The translations under genes and the position numbers were made by a program. A stretch of DNA of 48,388 nt. It comes from a virus. The stretch covers positions 1 through 48,388 of IMG/VR virus record IMGVR_UViG_3300023284_000582. One strand, given 5' to 3'. Under the pieces are notes generated by a model. That model had not been told where the DNA came from. It did no database searches and saw only the letters and a list, made by a program, of their open reading frames with translations. Positions 12,818 through 22,347 of the stretch are shown one piece after another; within the stretch, counting starts at the first letter, position 1; every line of letters starts with the position of its first letter.

Positions 12818-14224
12818 TTATTGCCAATCAGAACTATATCCAGAATCATATGACATATGAGCATAGCGTGACCCATCCCAAAAATGATTAAACTTATCTT
12901 CAGGCTTGTTAATCGCTATTCCATTTATCTCCATGAACCTATAGTTTTCAGCTTCTTTTCTTGCAAATTTATATAATGCATTTCTAACAATGTATATTTT
13001 TTTCTTTCGCATTGATGTTATCCAAAACATAACAGAGTGTGTCTTCACTACTTTTTCAACCTCCCAATCCATTTCATAAAGAGCGGATACCATTTGAAAT
13101 GACCCCTTTGTTTGATGGGTAAACCTGTCAGCACTATCTGCTGTTATTGGATCGTGTTTACTTATTCCTATTGATTTAAGAAAAGAGTCAATTATGTCAG
13201 GGGTTTCCATTGGCTGATAGCACAATAGTTCTAAATAAATATTTGGTCCTTCTTCACCATATTTCACTAACGCTGTAGGATCGTTGGTGAAACCAAAATC
13301 TAAACCGTATGTATGAGCAACGTGTGACGGAAACTCATCTATGTATTGAACATTATTGAAAATTAGCCCTTTCATTGAGCCTCTTAAACCAAGCCCATAA
13401 ACTTTCCAATTAAACTCATCAACCGTATTGTATTCTATGTTTTCCGGGTGTGGTGGTGGTTGGTTTTTATCAGAAACCTCTTCACCTCTATACATCATTT
13501 TATTGCCTTCTATCTGATAGCTTCCTGGTAGCCACGGTTCATAACCTAGTATTTTGTTTTTTTCTTTTATTGAAATATGCGTGTTCTGATTAAATGTAGT
13601 CCTTAAGAACCCTACATCCGGTCTGGTTATAACAGAATTAAAAATCCAGTGTTCAGTGAATGATGGGTTGTAATCCATCCACCAGAATTTCCGGCAACGC
13701 ATTTCAACTTGATCAAACACACCTCTTTTGATCATCATTGCTTCGTTGAAAAATGCATAATCACAACCGCCTCCGTGTTTTCCATCACCTAAAAAATAAA
13801 CCTTTGAATTGCCTATTTTAAAACTCTTAACTTCTTCAGCTTCCTTGAATTTATTGGGTAGGCCAAAATCATCTAATCGTCTTTTGAAATCATCATATAG
13901 AGTTGTTTTAAATTCGTTGTACGTTTCCCGGTAAATGTTGATCGTACACCCGTCAGTTACATGTAGAATAGTGCTGAGATAAATTATAAAATCAACGCCT
14001 GACCATGTCTTGCCTGATCGGCTGGACCCTTCTAATACAACCCCTCCATAACCAGCGATTAGTTTATCCTTAGAATCATATTGTTGTTCACTTAATGATT
14101 TTAGGATGAAATTATAATTAACATTATTCTCCGTTGATTCACAGTCTTGTAATTGTTGTGTTCTATTCCAACGGTCACGCAACTCTATAAGGTCTAGGTA
14201 TTCTTCTTTTTGTGCTGGGGTCAC
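12818..14224 (-). CDS. terL: Terminase large subunit
   Basis: The 468-residue DNA-packaging motor and nuclease. Residues 66-73 form the Walker A loop GSSRSGKT. 'CDYAFFNEA' (154-162) is the Walker B motif with the catalytic Glu, and 'MDYNP' (183-187) is the coupling motif. The RNase-H-like nuclease follows: 'GLDFGFTNDPTAL' (307-319), 'ITADSADR' (360-367) and a late Asp in 'HFWDGSRYAH'. Length is normal. It overlaps the HExxH gene upstream by 4 bases. The small subunit is not adjacent but lies at 21883-22347 in the early unit. Confidence 0.95.
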   Translation of the reverse strand: MTPAQKEEYLDLIELRDRWNRTQQLQDCESTENNVNYNFILKSLSEQQYDSKDKLIAGYGGVVLEGSSRSGKTWSGVDFIIYLSTILHVTDGCTINIYRETYNEFKTTLYDDFKRRLDDFGLPNKFKEAEEVKSFKIGNSKVYFLGDGKHGGGCDYAFFNEAMMIKRGVFDQVEMRCRKFWWMDYNPSFTEHWIFNSVITRPDVGFLRTTFNQNTHISIKEKNKILGYEPWLPGSYQIEGNKMMYRGEEVSDKNQPPPHPENIEYNTVDEFNWKVYGLGLRGSMKGLIFNNVQYIDEFPSHVAHTYGLDFGFTNDPTALVKYGEEGPNIYLELLCYQPMETPDIIDSFLKSIGISKHDPITADSADRFTHQTKGSFQMVSALYEMDWEVEKVVKTHSVMFWITSMRKKKIYIVRNALYKFARKEAENYRFMEINGIAINKPEDKFNHFWDGSRYAHMSYDSGYSSDWQ

Positions 14225-16762: not shown

Positions 16763-16772
16763 AAAATAAAAA

Positions 16773-16815
16773 ATCCTACGAGGGTCAGCTTCGGTACCGC
16801 CTTCCCCAATAGGAT
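16773..16815 (-). promoter_or_regulatory. Conserved 5'-UTR hairpin element before GIY-YIG gene
   Basis: On the minus strand a 6-bp outer stem (ATCCTA/TAGGAT) encloses TTGGGGAAG...ACCCTCG, with an inner GGG/CCC pairing and a possible third small stem. It is followed by a T-rich run, and the ATG at 16762 begins 10 bases later. The same layout and core occur at 37558-37606 before an HNH gene. The outer stem sequences differ completely while both still pair. It could be a riboregulator or an attenuator. Confidence 0.65.
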
Positions 16816-16830
16816 AAATATTGTTTAAAT

Positions 16831-16851
16831 ATGATGGGTACCGACCATCAT
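16831..16851 (-). other. 7-bp hairpin at predicted transcript 5' end
   Basis: ATGATGG/CCATCAT with a 7-base loop (TCGGTAC or complement). It begins about 9 bases after the -7 element of the promoter at 16860-16890, so it would form the very 5' end of the GIY-YIG mRNA and could protect it from decay (inference). Confidence 0.55.
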
Positions 16852-16859
16852 TAATACTT

Positions 16860-16890
16860 CAAAGGTATGTATTTGCTTCTTATGATGCAA
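16860..16890 (-). promoter_or_regulatory. Promoter for GIY-YIG gene (TTG-N20-TACCTTTG)
   Basis: Minus-strand TACCTTTG fits TAnnTTTG, with TTG 20 bases upstream. The predicted start is near 16853, giving a leader of about 90 bases that contains two hairpins. Confidence 0.6.
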
Positions 16891-16921
16891 TGTTTTTCGT
16901 CTGCTTCCTGGGAATATGCCT

Positions 16922-17128
16922 ATTATAACTAAATAAAATTGTTGACTTTATCGGTTCATATTGGAAACAAATTTGTTTAGTTATAATCCTATGAAATGGT
17001 GAGTATGCGTATAGGTTTCGGGGCAACGGTGCCCCTTATTGAAAACGGTTATTGTGAGGTACGAACAATAAAGAGAGTTTTTAATGAGGGTAAAATGAAT
17101 AGAAGCGGGGGTGTTTGTTATTTCTTAT
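16922..17128. ncRNA. Structured element R1, twin of R2 at 21169-21360
   Basis: Within a 407-base gap there is a 12-bp stem (16922-16933 with 16976-16987) and an inner AATTGTT/AACAAATT stem (16937-16943 with 16966-16973). Its loop (16946-16968) reads CTTTATCGG..ATATTGGAAAC. Next come a GGGGC/GCCCC hairpin (17020-17035), a TTATTGT/ACAATAA hairpin (17049-17071) and a tail (17101-17128) that starts AGAAGCGGG. The same parts in the same order occur in R2. Strand of transcription is unknown; a plus-strand gene starts 42 bases after the tail. It could be an RNA or a DNA site such as an origin. Confidence 0.65.
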
Positions 17129-17169
17129 GGTGCTATTAAAAAATTACTATATTGCATAAAAATAAGACT

Positions 17170-17406
17170 ATGAATTTTAAATTAATACTTAAAATAGATC
17201 AAGGATATGGCGCTGAATATTCTTTTAAAAATATAGGAACTACTAAGTTTCAATGCTGCCCCAGGGTTGAAGAGTTTATTATATTTGAAAACAAAACATA
17301 TAAAATTGCAAAAATCACTCATTCAGAAAATGAGATAGAATTAATTGTGAATATATACAATCCTAAAGATTATGGAAATTATGAAATAGAAGCAACTATT
17401 GATTAG
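17170..17406 (+). CDS. Small plus-strand protein downstream of R1
   Basis: A 78-residue protein whose start at 17170 is chosen because it carries the AATAAGACTATG leader typical of this genome; an ATG at 17152 would add only MHKNKT. It is beta-like (FKLILKIDQGYGAEYSFKN) with one CC pair. It stands alone on the plus strand, follows R1 and converges on the minus gene ending at 17396. No family recognised. Confidence 0.65.
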   Translation: MNFKLILKIDQGYGAEYSFKNIGTTKFQCCPRVEEFIIFENKTYKIAKITHSENEIELIVNIYNPKDYGNYEIEATID

Positions 17407-20593: not shown

Positions 20594-21064
20594 TTACATG
20601 AATAATTCAAATTCTTTTCTATCAGGATGAAATCTAAACTCTTTACAACAGGCTAGGAATTTACTTCCTAATATGATTGGATGAAGGTAATTCCCGGGCA
20701 ATTCTGCAAACTCTTCAGTAAATAGATTGTTAATTCCTTCAATCTCAAATTTAATATCAAACAAGGGGCTCTCGTGTGCTCCATCTTGACCAGCATATAG
20801 CGCTCTTTGATATCCTGATGCTATTAATCTATGGGTTTCCGCAAACCCACGTGTAATATGTGACTTGTAGGCTCCCGTATCAATCGCCGCTTCAAAAACT
20901 TCATTCACTCCCGGTATTTTAATTTTAAGAATAGGAGTATAATAGGGGCTCAAAATCCCTTGAACAACCTGATCTAAATCATATGGTACTATATCTTCCA
21001 TGCGTATAACCTTAAAGTTATGTTCGTAAAAACTTATAGGGGCAATATAATAATCGTTATTCAT
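20594..21064 (-). CDS. Retropepsin-like aspartic protease
   Basis: A 156-residue protein. Residues 53-72 read 'VNEVFEAAIDTGAYKSHITR', with the catalytic DTGA at 62-65 preceded by a hydrophobic strand. 'HPIILGSKFL' (128-137) is the counterpart of the second hydrophobic-hydrophobic-Gly motif. One DTG per chain means the enzyme would act as a dimer, as in retroviral and bacterial retropepsin-like proteases. The first 40 residues are an extra N-terminal part. It lies downstream of the structured R2 region. Substrate unknown; head or replication protein processing are guesses. Confidence 0.75.
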   Translation of the reverse strand: MNNDYYIAPISFYEHNFKVIRMEDIVPYDLDQVVQGILSPYYTPILKIKIPGVNEVFEAAIDTGAYKSHITRGFAETHRLIASGYQRALYAGQDGAHESPLFDIKFEIEGINNLFTEEFAELPGNYLHPIILGSKFLACCKEFRFHPDRKEFELFM

Positions 21065-21168
21065 TTTTATCTAGTTAAAGTTTATAACCCATAGAATATA
21101 ATTAATGTCAATAATCCCCACAAATCAAAAAATTTCATGCTCTACACTATATTCCTTATTCGCGGGGC

Positions 21169-21360
21169 TACTTAACATAATATAAAGTTATAGGTCTTTC
21201 GGAATTATATGGAAAGCACTTCTATAACTATACGTTATGTTAAGTAAGCTTTGGGGCTTTAAACGCCGGTAATTCTTAACTTTTCCCATAAGAATTAATT
21301 ACGGAAGTCTGTAGTAATAGGTGTTTATTGCCAGAAGCGGGAGTATTTATTTTTTCATAT
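21169..21360. ncRNA. Structured element R2, twin of R1
   Basis: The outer 12-bp stem is 21169-21180 with 21235-21246, the inner 8-bp stem AGTTATAG/CTATAACT is 21186-21193 with 21222-21229, and the core hairpin is CTTTC...GAAAG (21196-21216). Next come GGGGC..GCC (21253-21267), a 9-bp hairpin (21270-21278 with 21289-21297) and a tail at 21333-21360. The tail matches R1 at 23 of 28 positions. Stems differ in sequence from R1 but still pair, which is evidence for a conserved structure. Confidence 0.7.
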
Positions 21361-21510
21361 TACGGTAATCAATTTCATTTCTCATTTATTATTCTGATCG
21401 AAGTCAGAAAGTTTTATTAAAAATTAAATACAGGCCTGTCTGAGGTATACCCGTGATTTTTGTTTGCAGATCCGTATGTGCGTTTTGGGATTCATTTTAA
21501 ACCGTTGCCC

Positions 21511-21583
21511 ATATGGATTTTAAAATGTGGTAAGAGCGACTGAAAGGAGTGGACCACATGATCCGTAGGATTAAAATCCATAT
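21511..21583. ncRNA. Long nested hairpin in the R2 region
   Basis: A perfect 13-bp outer stem (21511-21523 with 21571-21583) and a perfect 7-bp inner stem ATGTGGT/ACCACAT (21525-21531 with 21553-21559) surround a GA-rich loop. The one-base junction on the 5' side makes chance pairing unlikely. Strand and role unknown. Confidence 0.6.
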
Positions 21584-21739
21584 ACTCTTATTTTCTGCGA
21601 AGCAGGAGCTCCGTTTGTTTATTTGCATAATCCTATGTTTTACTACTATCATTTAAAAAGTGTTTCCCTAGAGATAATCGTTATTCACTCGCTTGAATCG
21701 CCGTTTGGTGTTTTAGATGCTTCCTTAGAATAATGCTAA

Positions 21740-21880
21740 TCATTTTAACAATCTATATTCAATAAACACGAACGGGGTCCAAATATATCCTTTAATCCAT
21801 ATTCTCTGGAATATACGCCTCAATCTGCCTCCACTTGCACCATTATTCCAGGTTCCGAATCTTATAGTTAATAATTTCAT
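21740..21880 (-). CDS. 46-residue paralogue of 19563-19757
   Basis: A 46-residue open frame (MKLLTIRFGTWNNGASGG) starting two bases after the terminase stop, with a TGACTATG leader. It shares FGTW, SGGRLRRIF/KGGRLRRIY, WTPFV and YRLL with the 64-residue protein and lacks its acidic tail. The conserved positions support a real gene despite its size. Confidence 0.75.
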   Translation of the reverse strand: MKLLTIRFGTWNNGASGGRLRRIFQRIWIKGYIWTPFVFIEYRLLK

Positions 21881-21882
21881 AG

Positions 21883-22347
21883 TCATTTCTTTTCATCTTT
21901 TTTCAATTCCTCCATAGCCTCTTTTATTGCCATTTCCTCTAATTCCTCTAGCCTTGCGCGTTGTTTATCTGTGTAATCTGTTCCAATCTTATCTCCACCA
22001 GATGTAATATCTGTTTTGTCCGGCGCATTGTACCCGACCATTTTATTAATGACCTCAATAGCTTTGATCTTATCGATTGTTCGTTCATCTTTGGAGTCTT
22101 CCCCTTGTAGAATCTTTTTAAGCTCTAAAATGTTCCCTAGCGCGCTTACCCCGGCTAATTTACTTAAGTCCTTTTGTATTTCCTCGATATAATCAGTTAT
22201 GCAAGTTTTTGCAAGCAGTTTAGACTGATTCGATCTAGCAGTATCATAGTCTGCATTAGGATAAGCAACCTGATAAGATCGTGTGCCATTCCAGTCTATT
22301 ACGTACTGTTCTGCAAATACTCTCCATTCTGGTTTTAAGTCATTCAT
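21883..22347 (-). CDS. terS: Terminase small subunit
   Basis: A 154-residue protein with the typical start of terminase_2-type small subunits: 'FAEQYVIDWNGTRSYQVAYP' (an N-terminal HTH in which Asn-Gly-Thr precedes the recognition helix), then 'SNQSKLLAKTCITDYIEEI'. The middle is helical for oligomerisation and the C terminus acidic/basic (MEELKKDEKK). It recognises the packaging site and regulates TerL. It is placed at the end of the early unit, about 7.7 kb from terL, next to the structured non-coding region. Confidence 0.9.
   Translation of the reverse strand: MNDLKPEWRVFAEQYVIDWNGTRSYQVAYPNADYDTARSNQSKLLAKTCITDYIEEIQKDLSKLAGVSALGNILELKKILQGEDSKDERTIDKIKAIEVINKMVGYNAPDKTDITSGGDKIGTDYTDKQRARLEELEEMAIKEAMEELKKDEKK

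Follow-up and report, generated by a model that had tools for sequence, protein, structure and literature searches.

An inverted pair of dif-like sites beside a conserved three-way junction in a tailed phage genome

Introduction

Lysogeny by means of host Xer recombinases has been described for filamentous phages and microviruses, and only suggested for tailless dsDNA phages. In CTXphi, attP is made up of two dif-like sites in inverted orientation, which pair with each other when the DNA is single-stranded; in VGJphi it is a 29-bp dif-like site (PMC4246890). Microvirus proviruses of Bacteroidetes have dif-like att sites and no recombinase, and dimer resolution in Bacteroidia was unstudied as of 2011 (PMC3091885). 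We found no case of Xer-mediated lysogeny of a tailed phage in the searchable literature; for marine Vibrio, tailed prophages were described as integrating by their own integrases (PMC11630473).

Here we describe a non-coding gap in a phage genome. Its strongest feature is very probably a Xer recombination site, a kind of element that the first-pass annotation had left unconsidered.

Results

Genome and placement of the gap

The window (the whole stretch of DNA analysed, 48,388 bases) is one virus record, and its recognised genes lie on the minus strand. Judged by predicted genes for tape measure, portal, TerL, TerS, RecT and SSB, it is a tailed phage, whose TerL is nearest to that of Cellulophaga phage Nekkels_1 (53%). 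The contig ends have 144 identical bases in common. We ruled out that this repeat marks physical ends and take it as an assembly overlap, because end repeats of exactly 144 bases occur in two other contigs (127 in one) and the repeat sits within a gene whose reading frame crosses the end junction. The ends are thus arbitrary and the genome maps as a circle. A stretch of 7.6 kb with many small genes separates TerL (12818-14224) from TerS, unlike in most relatives, where the two are adjacent or less than 2 kb apart.

The gap (21065-21739, 675 bases) does lie directly 3' of the TerS gene, as annotated, save for a doubtful ORF between the two (Table 1). Its other neighbour is an ORF that looks retropepsin-like by motif and matched no family. 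Every ORF of at least 20 aa inside the gap received a spurious-like codon score, and we rejected a coding role for these tiny ORFs. Neither TerS nor the 156-aa ORF, used alone as query, brought up a close relative, and blastn of the gap in phages gave no match.

Table 1 Features of the window and of related loci
Feature	Position	Strand	Description
156-aa ORF, neighbour of gap	20594-21064	minus	retropepsin-like by motif (AAIDTGA ... IILGSKFL), read from translation
Hairpin R2	21169-21246		two dif-like sites in inverted orientation, 18 nt apart, with outward XerD arms
dif-like site A	21170-21198	minus	29 bp: XerC arm AAGACCTATAA, 7-bp centre CTTTATA, XerD arm TTATGTTAAGT
dif-like site B	21217-21245	plus	29 bp, degenerate centre: CACTTCTATAA, CTATACG, TTATGTTAAGT
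Extra stretch	21247-21459		between junction block and hairpin; ~205 nt more than in G002
Conserved block	21460-21593	minus	three-way junction + tail AAAACGCAC..GATCTGCAA; homologous to L138:168-302 of G002
Three-way junction	21511-21583		P1 21511-21523/21571-21583; P2 21562-21564/21568-21570; P3 21525-21531/21553-21559
Doubtful 46-48-aa ORF	21740-21886		sole thing separating gap from TerS
TerS, terminase small subunit	21883-22347	minus	phrog_51 4.5e-16; PF03592 above cut-off
tRNA-like genes	25128-25231; L076:8918-9034; L022:8576-8698; L046:1723-1837; L026:9036-9149; L006:7866-8004; L008:8926-9072	minus (window)	
~185-nt RNA (alignment A5, model R1)	L022:9166-9344; L030:9313-9495; L035:9097-9279; L076:9235-9409		20 other loci too

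One hairpin stands out in the gap

Of the stems reported earlier, we confirmed the 13-bp stem with an inner 6-7-bp stem (21511-21583), the hairpin R2 with its 25-nt arms (21169-21193/21222-21246, 88%) and, near 21390-21409, a hairpin capped by GAA. The suggestion that the gap is unusually structured overall did not hold. The full gap plus flank is only mildly structured (z about -2 to -2.5), and the R2 segment was the sole outlier in a scan of the whole window, being its most stable 150-nt segment relative to shuffles (dE -18.2). Folded as single-stranded DNA, R2 gave a z of -5.6 to -5.9, and none of 200 shuffles was equally stable. The segment with the nested stems reached a z of about -1 in the window scan, and the nested 13-bp stem is unexceptional by energy (z -1.3 on the minus strand, -2.7 on the plus strand). 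A single perfect 13-bp stem is about what chance provides, as the annotation itself had held; what takes this one out of chance is its conservation in another phage (see below), not its stability.

A large phage RNA of the GOLLD or ROOL kind and a pRNA, which had been suggested for this place, are out, since the gap matched no Rfam family at the gathering score. A scan up to E=10 returned nothing except meaningless microRNA models on R2. R2 was also rejected as an intrinsic terminator: it has no U run and is followed by AAGCTTTGGGGC on the plus strand and AGCCCCGCGAAT on the minus strand.

A dif consensus for Bacteroidia

To find out what dif looks like in the host class, we searched 198 Bacteroidia genomes for the pattern ATAA-N6-TTATGTTAAGT. 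It was present in 40 genomes, once in each save for one genome with an inverted pair. One narrow class of centre was found at 34 of the 41 sites (TTTATA 14, TTAATA 10, TAAACA 4, TTTACA 3, TTAACA 3), and the most frequent of these is the centre seen in the window. A reversed control pattern had matches in about 23 of the 198 genomes, so the case for dif rests on the conserved centre and arm and not on the count. Twenty sites with flanks, from 20 genomes, gave the consensus TTGTCCTATAA-TTTATA-TTATGTTAAGT, which is derived from sequences and not from experiments.

A Weeksellaceae chromosome has an inverted pair of the R2 kind (score 36.2, the sole match in the 400 kb sampled). It lies at 1.154 Mb, near the antipode of an origin that skew places at about 2.9 of 3.34 Mb, and hence close to the skew-inferred terminus, a coarse placement in one complete Bacteroidota chromosome.

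The XerD-arm palindrome was found in 15 genome contigs, which belong to several phyla and include four from Bacteroidota. In these four, ATAA, which was absent from the search pattern, stands exactly six bases inside the arm in 6 of 8 half-sites. A relaxed 18-base palindrome occurred in 7 Bacteroidia genomes versus about 11 for the reversed control; with no enrichment, chromosomal hairpins found by their arms alone are no evidence by themselves. Inverted XerD-arm hairpins also lie between genes in Polaromonas, Rhodobacteraceae, Bacteroidales MAGs and Thermoflexales (L162-L176). Chance is an unlikely source of these because the hosts are GC-rich, and each may represent a dif locus or the trace of a Xer-exploiting element.

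The hairpin is very probably a dif-type Xer site

The arms of R2 (ACTTAACATAA/TTATGTTAAGT) correspond to the XerD half of dif. On both sides the 11-bp sequence TTATGTTAAGT agrees with the XerD-arm consensus TTATGTTAA(A/G)T; it is identical to the XerD arm in the dif published for Rhodoferax ferrireducens and matches that of E. coli dif at 10 of 11 positions (PMC2731167). The XerC arms end in CCTATAA and TCTATAA, in keeping with the expected (C/T)ATAA. Both half-sites have a centre of 7 bp and not the six of chromosomal dif. This parts the site from chromosomal dif but not from sites of the attP type, since the attP of VGJphi and CTXphi have extended centres. As in IMEX of the CTX type, two inverted dif-like sites are present that are able to pair in single-stranded DNA. 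We also weighed a likeness to integron attC, with its RYYYAAC/GTTRRRY ends, and dropped it by inspection once the XerC arm, spacing and centre fitted dif.

Site A is identical to the derived Bacteroidia dif at 24 of 28 positions, with one extra base in the centre. Scored with a matrix of the 20 Bacteroidia dif sites, and with one centre base skipped, it reached 35.5; the 20 real sites scored at least 30.2, and the best of 30 shuffled windows, given the same freedom, 17.7. It is the sole match above 22 in the window, where site B (19.2) is second best, and across about 1.7 Mb of related phage DNA scores above 22 occurred only in the window and in the contig G002, described below. By its sequence, the hairpin is thus very probably a dif-type Xer site.

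The window gave no match to Phage_integrase (PF00589) or Resolvase (PF00239). It thus resembles CTX-type IMEX also in having no integrase of its own. G002 has one sub-threshold Resolvase match, and neither phage has a confident tyrosine or serine recombinase. On balance, we favour the reading that the gap carries an IMEX-type, attP-like Xer site for recombination with the host dif. Against it, model R2 found nothing in 247 Bacteroidia genomes, and no prophage of the lineage was seen at a dif site.

A three-way junction shared with a second phage

Relatives were collected by a TerL scan (80 loci) and a TerS scan (42 further loci). With the gap as query against 25 phage records, the contig G002 (IMGVR_UViG_3300022670_000218), whose TerS is 42% identical to that of the window, matched with both hairpin arms. 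Reading of this locus (L138) revealed the nested stem too, and the 13-bp stem is part (P1) of a three-way junction. The conserved block is 75% identical over 92 nt (E 1e-6 with blastn, 2e-7 with nhmmer, both against the collected loci; alignment A7), and CCACTCC.....GTCGCTCTT is conserved between the two phages in the 21-nt loop of P3. Of 10 pairs that differ in P1, P2 and P3, 9 have compensating changes on both sides, in an alignment made by structure; random substitutions reach 9/10 in 0.4% of trials. The junction folds alone in both phages and on either strand, so the fold does not separate action as RNA from action as DNA. We regard the junction as a conserved structure with good confidence, from two sequences only. 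Pairing of the tail of L138 with the P3 loop as a pseudoknot was rejected by eye, since the window does not keep it.

In G002 the junction and an inverted XerD-arm hairpin have the same order and orientation as in the window, at a distance of 5-10 nt versus about 213 nt. The better half-site of G002 scored 29.1 with an 8-bp centre, and its dif centres are more degenerate than those of the window. The locus of junction plus hairpin is common to these two phages only: the pattern CCACTCCnnnnnGTCGCTCTT gave 17 viral matches and AAAACGCAC..GAYCTGCAA was searched likewise, G002 alone being real in each case, and blastn of the junction in plasmids gave no match.

The position beside TerS and the conserved fold would suit a pac/cos site or packaging RNA, as the first-pass annotation proposed. 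We found no positive evidence for this, and it is very improbable. The element matches no Rfam family; in G002 it sits after an HNH/AP2 ORF about 4.7 kb upstream of TerS, not adjoining it, and no TerL of the window's type was found there; other relatives bear a different conserved RNA between TerS and TerL. The annotation was nevertheless right that the place holds a special, structured, non-coding element.

The evidence for dif also bears on a role in which host XerCD would act on the pair to resolve dimers or concatemers of a phage genome that is circular or plasmid-like and never integrates. The sites cer and psi resolve plasmid multimers, and cer has an extended centre; the 7- and 8-bp centres of the two phages recall such plasmid sites, and the genome of the window maps as a circle. 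Within one molecule, however, a pair in inverted orientation would cause inversion and not resolution, a single site would be enough, and the ORFs scanned included no recognisable plasmid-maintenance gene. We consider multimer resolution unlikely.

The pair might instead be a captured remnant, the footprint of a small Xer-exploiting element (of the microvirus or inovirus type) or a segment of host dif, now without a role. Some Bacteroidetes microvirus proviruses bear an additional dif-like copy near one end (PMC3091885), and the two phages differ in where the locus lies with respect to TerS. Decay would be expected of a dead remnant, whereas here arms and junction were kept together, with compensatory changes, while other DNA diverged, which makes a remnant improbable in our view. 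As far as the sequence goes, dimer resolution or an inactive remnant would suit it equally well as the attP reading.

Other RNAs and repeats

Many loci of the TerL scan have tRNA-like genes and an RNA of about 185 nt between TerS and TerL. The RNA, which ends in a closing stem plus a U run, has 94% of cells paired and 33 of 44 pairs changed on both sides (0/500 shuffles as good), and gave no Rfam match. It looks like an undescribed phage RNA family unrelated to the element of the gap. Its model had no match in the window; the best in the gap, with filters off, was 4.3 bits.

The tRNA-like genes (104-147 nt) share an RNA cassette with this RNA in relatives. They have good acceptor, D and T arms, and varied inserts replace the anticodon arm; Rfam tRNA scores are 35-49 bits, and ARAGORN finds none of them. 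In the window, the end of an HNH/AP2 ORF (25222-25797) falls inside the tRNA-like gene.

Gaps longer than 500 bases also occur at 16763-17395, 24717-25221 and 25798-26331. The first (633 bases) holds a long hairpin (16922-16987, 22-nt arms, 91%) with arms unlike dif. The last (534 bases, minus strand) has further tRNA-like pieces (T-arm-like AGTGGTTCAAGTCCACT) and long complementary stretches. The near-palindrome ACTTACCTAAGT occurs four times exactly (19326, 19786, 20016 and 20158), before consecutive small genes, and six times with at most one mismatch versus 0.2 expected; perhaps it is an operator or a promoter-linked repeat.

Discussion

From the sequences we infer XerCD binding, integration and a role for the junction, as follows. 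Host XerC and XerD would bind the arms of the inverted dif-like pair and carry out recombination between this phage site and dif on the chromosome, and the integrase-less tailed phage would lodge at the host terminus. With its extended centre, the site would favour exchange next to the XerD arm, where TTTATA agrees fully with dif. Another possibility is that single-stranded DNA folds into the hairpin, as it does in CTXphi. The three-way junction would be a conserved accessory element, perhaps protein-binding or a transcript structure. Our proposal that a lineage of tailed dsDNA phages lysogenises Bacteroidota at dif via host XerCD, with a hairpin attP and the junction assisting, is a tentative one. 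This combination has so far been described in pieces only, for filamentous, microvirus or tailless phages.

If the site works, integrase-less phages annotated as virulent could be temperate, and dif would be the place to look for their prophages. The analysis also yields a testable consensus for the dif of Bacteroidia.

Comparison with known systems

GOLLD, ROOL and pRNA are like the element of the gap in being non-coding structures in phage genomes and differ in that the gap has no Rfam match. The closer likeness is to the attP of CTXphi (attP1/attP2, IMEX; PMC4246890, PMC5357621). Both have inverted dif-like sites able to fold into a hairpin when single-stranded, an extended or mismatched centre in at least one site, and no integrase gene found. 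In contrast, CTXphi is a filamentous ssDNA phage and the window a tailed dsDNA phage of about 48 kb; the sites are spaced by 18 nt in the window and by 90 in CTXphi; the centre is homologous to dif on the XerD side in the window and on the XerC side in CTXphi; and only the window's sites have a conserved three-way junction beside them. Site A has the length of the VGJphi attP (29 bp), which is a single site rather than an inverted pair and whose centre mismatches dif on the XerD side.

The microvirus proviruses BMV1-7 (PMC3091885) share with the window the likely host phylum, dif-like att sites and the lack of a recombinase gene, and some carry an additional dif-like site, as the window has a second one; they are, however, 6-kb ssDNA microviruses and not tailed phages. 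With the chromosomal dif of Bacteroidia, as derived here, the window has in common the XerD arm (11/11), the centre TTTATA and the inner 7 nt of the XerC arm, and it differs by one extra base between XerC arm and centre and by an inverted second copy 18 nt away.
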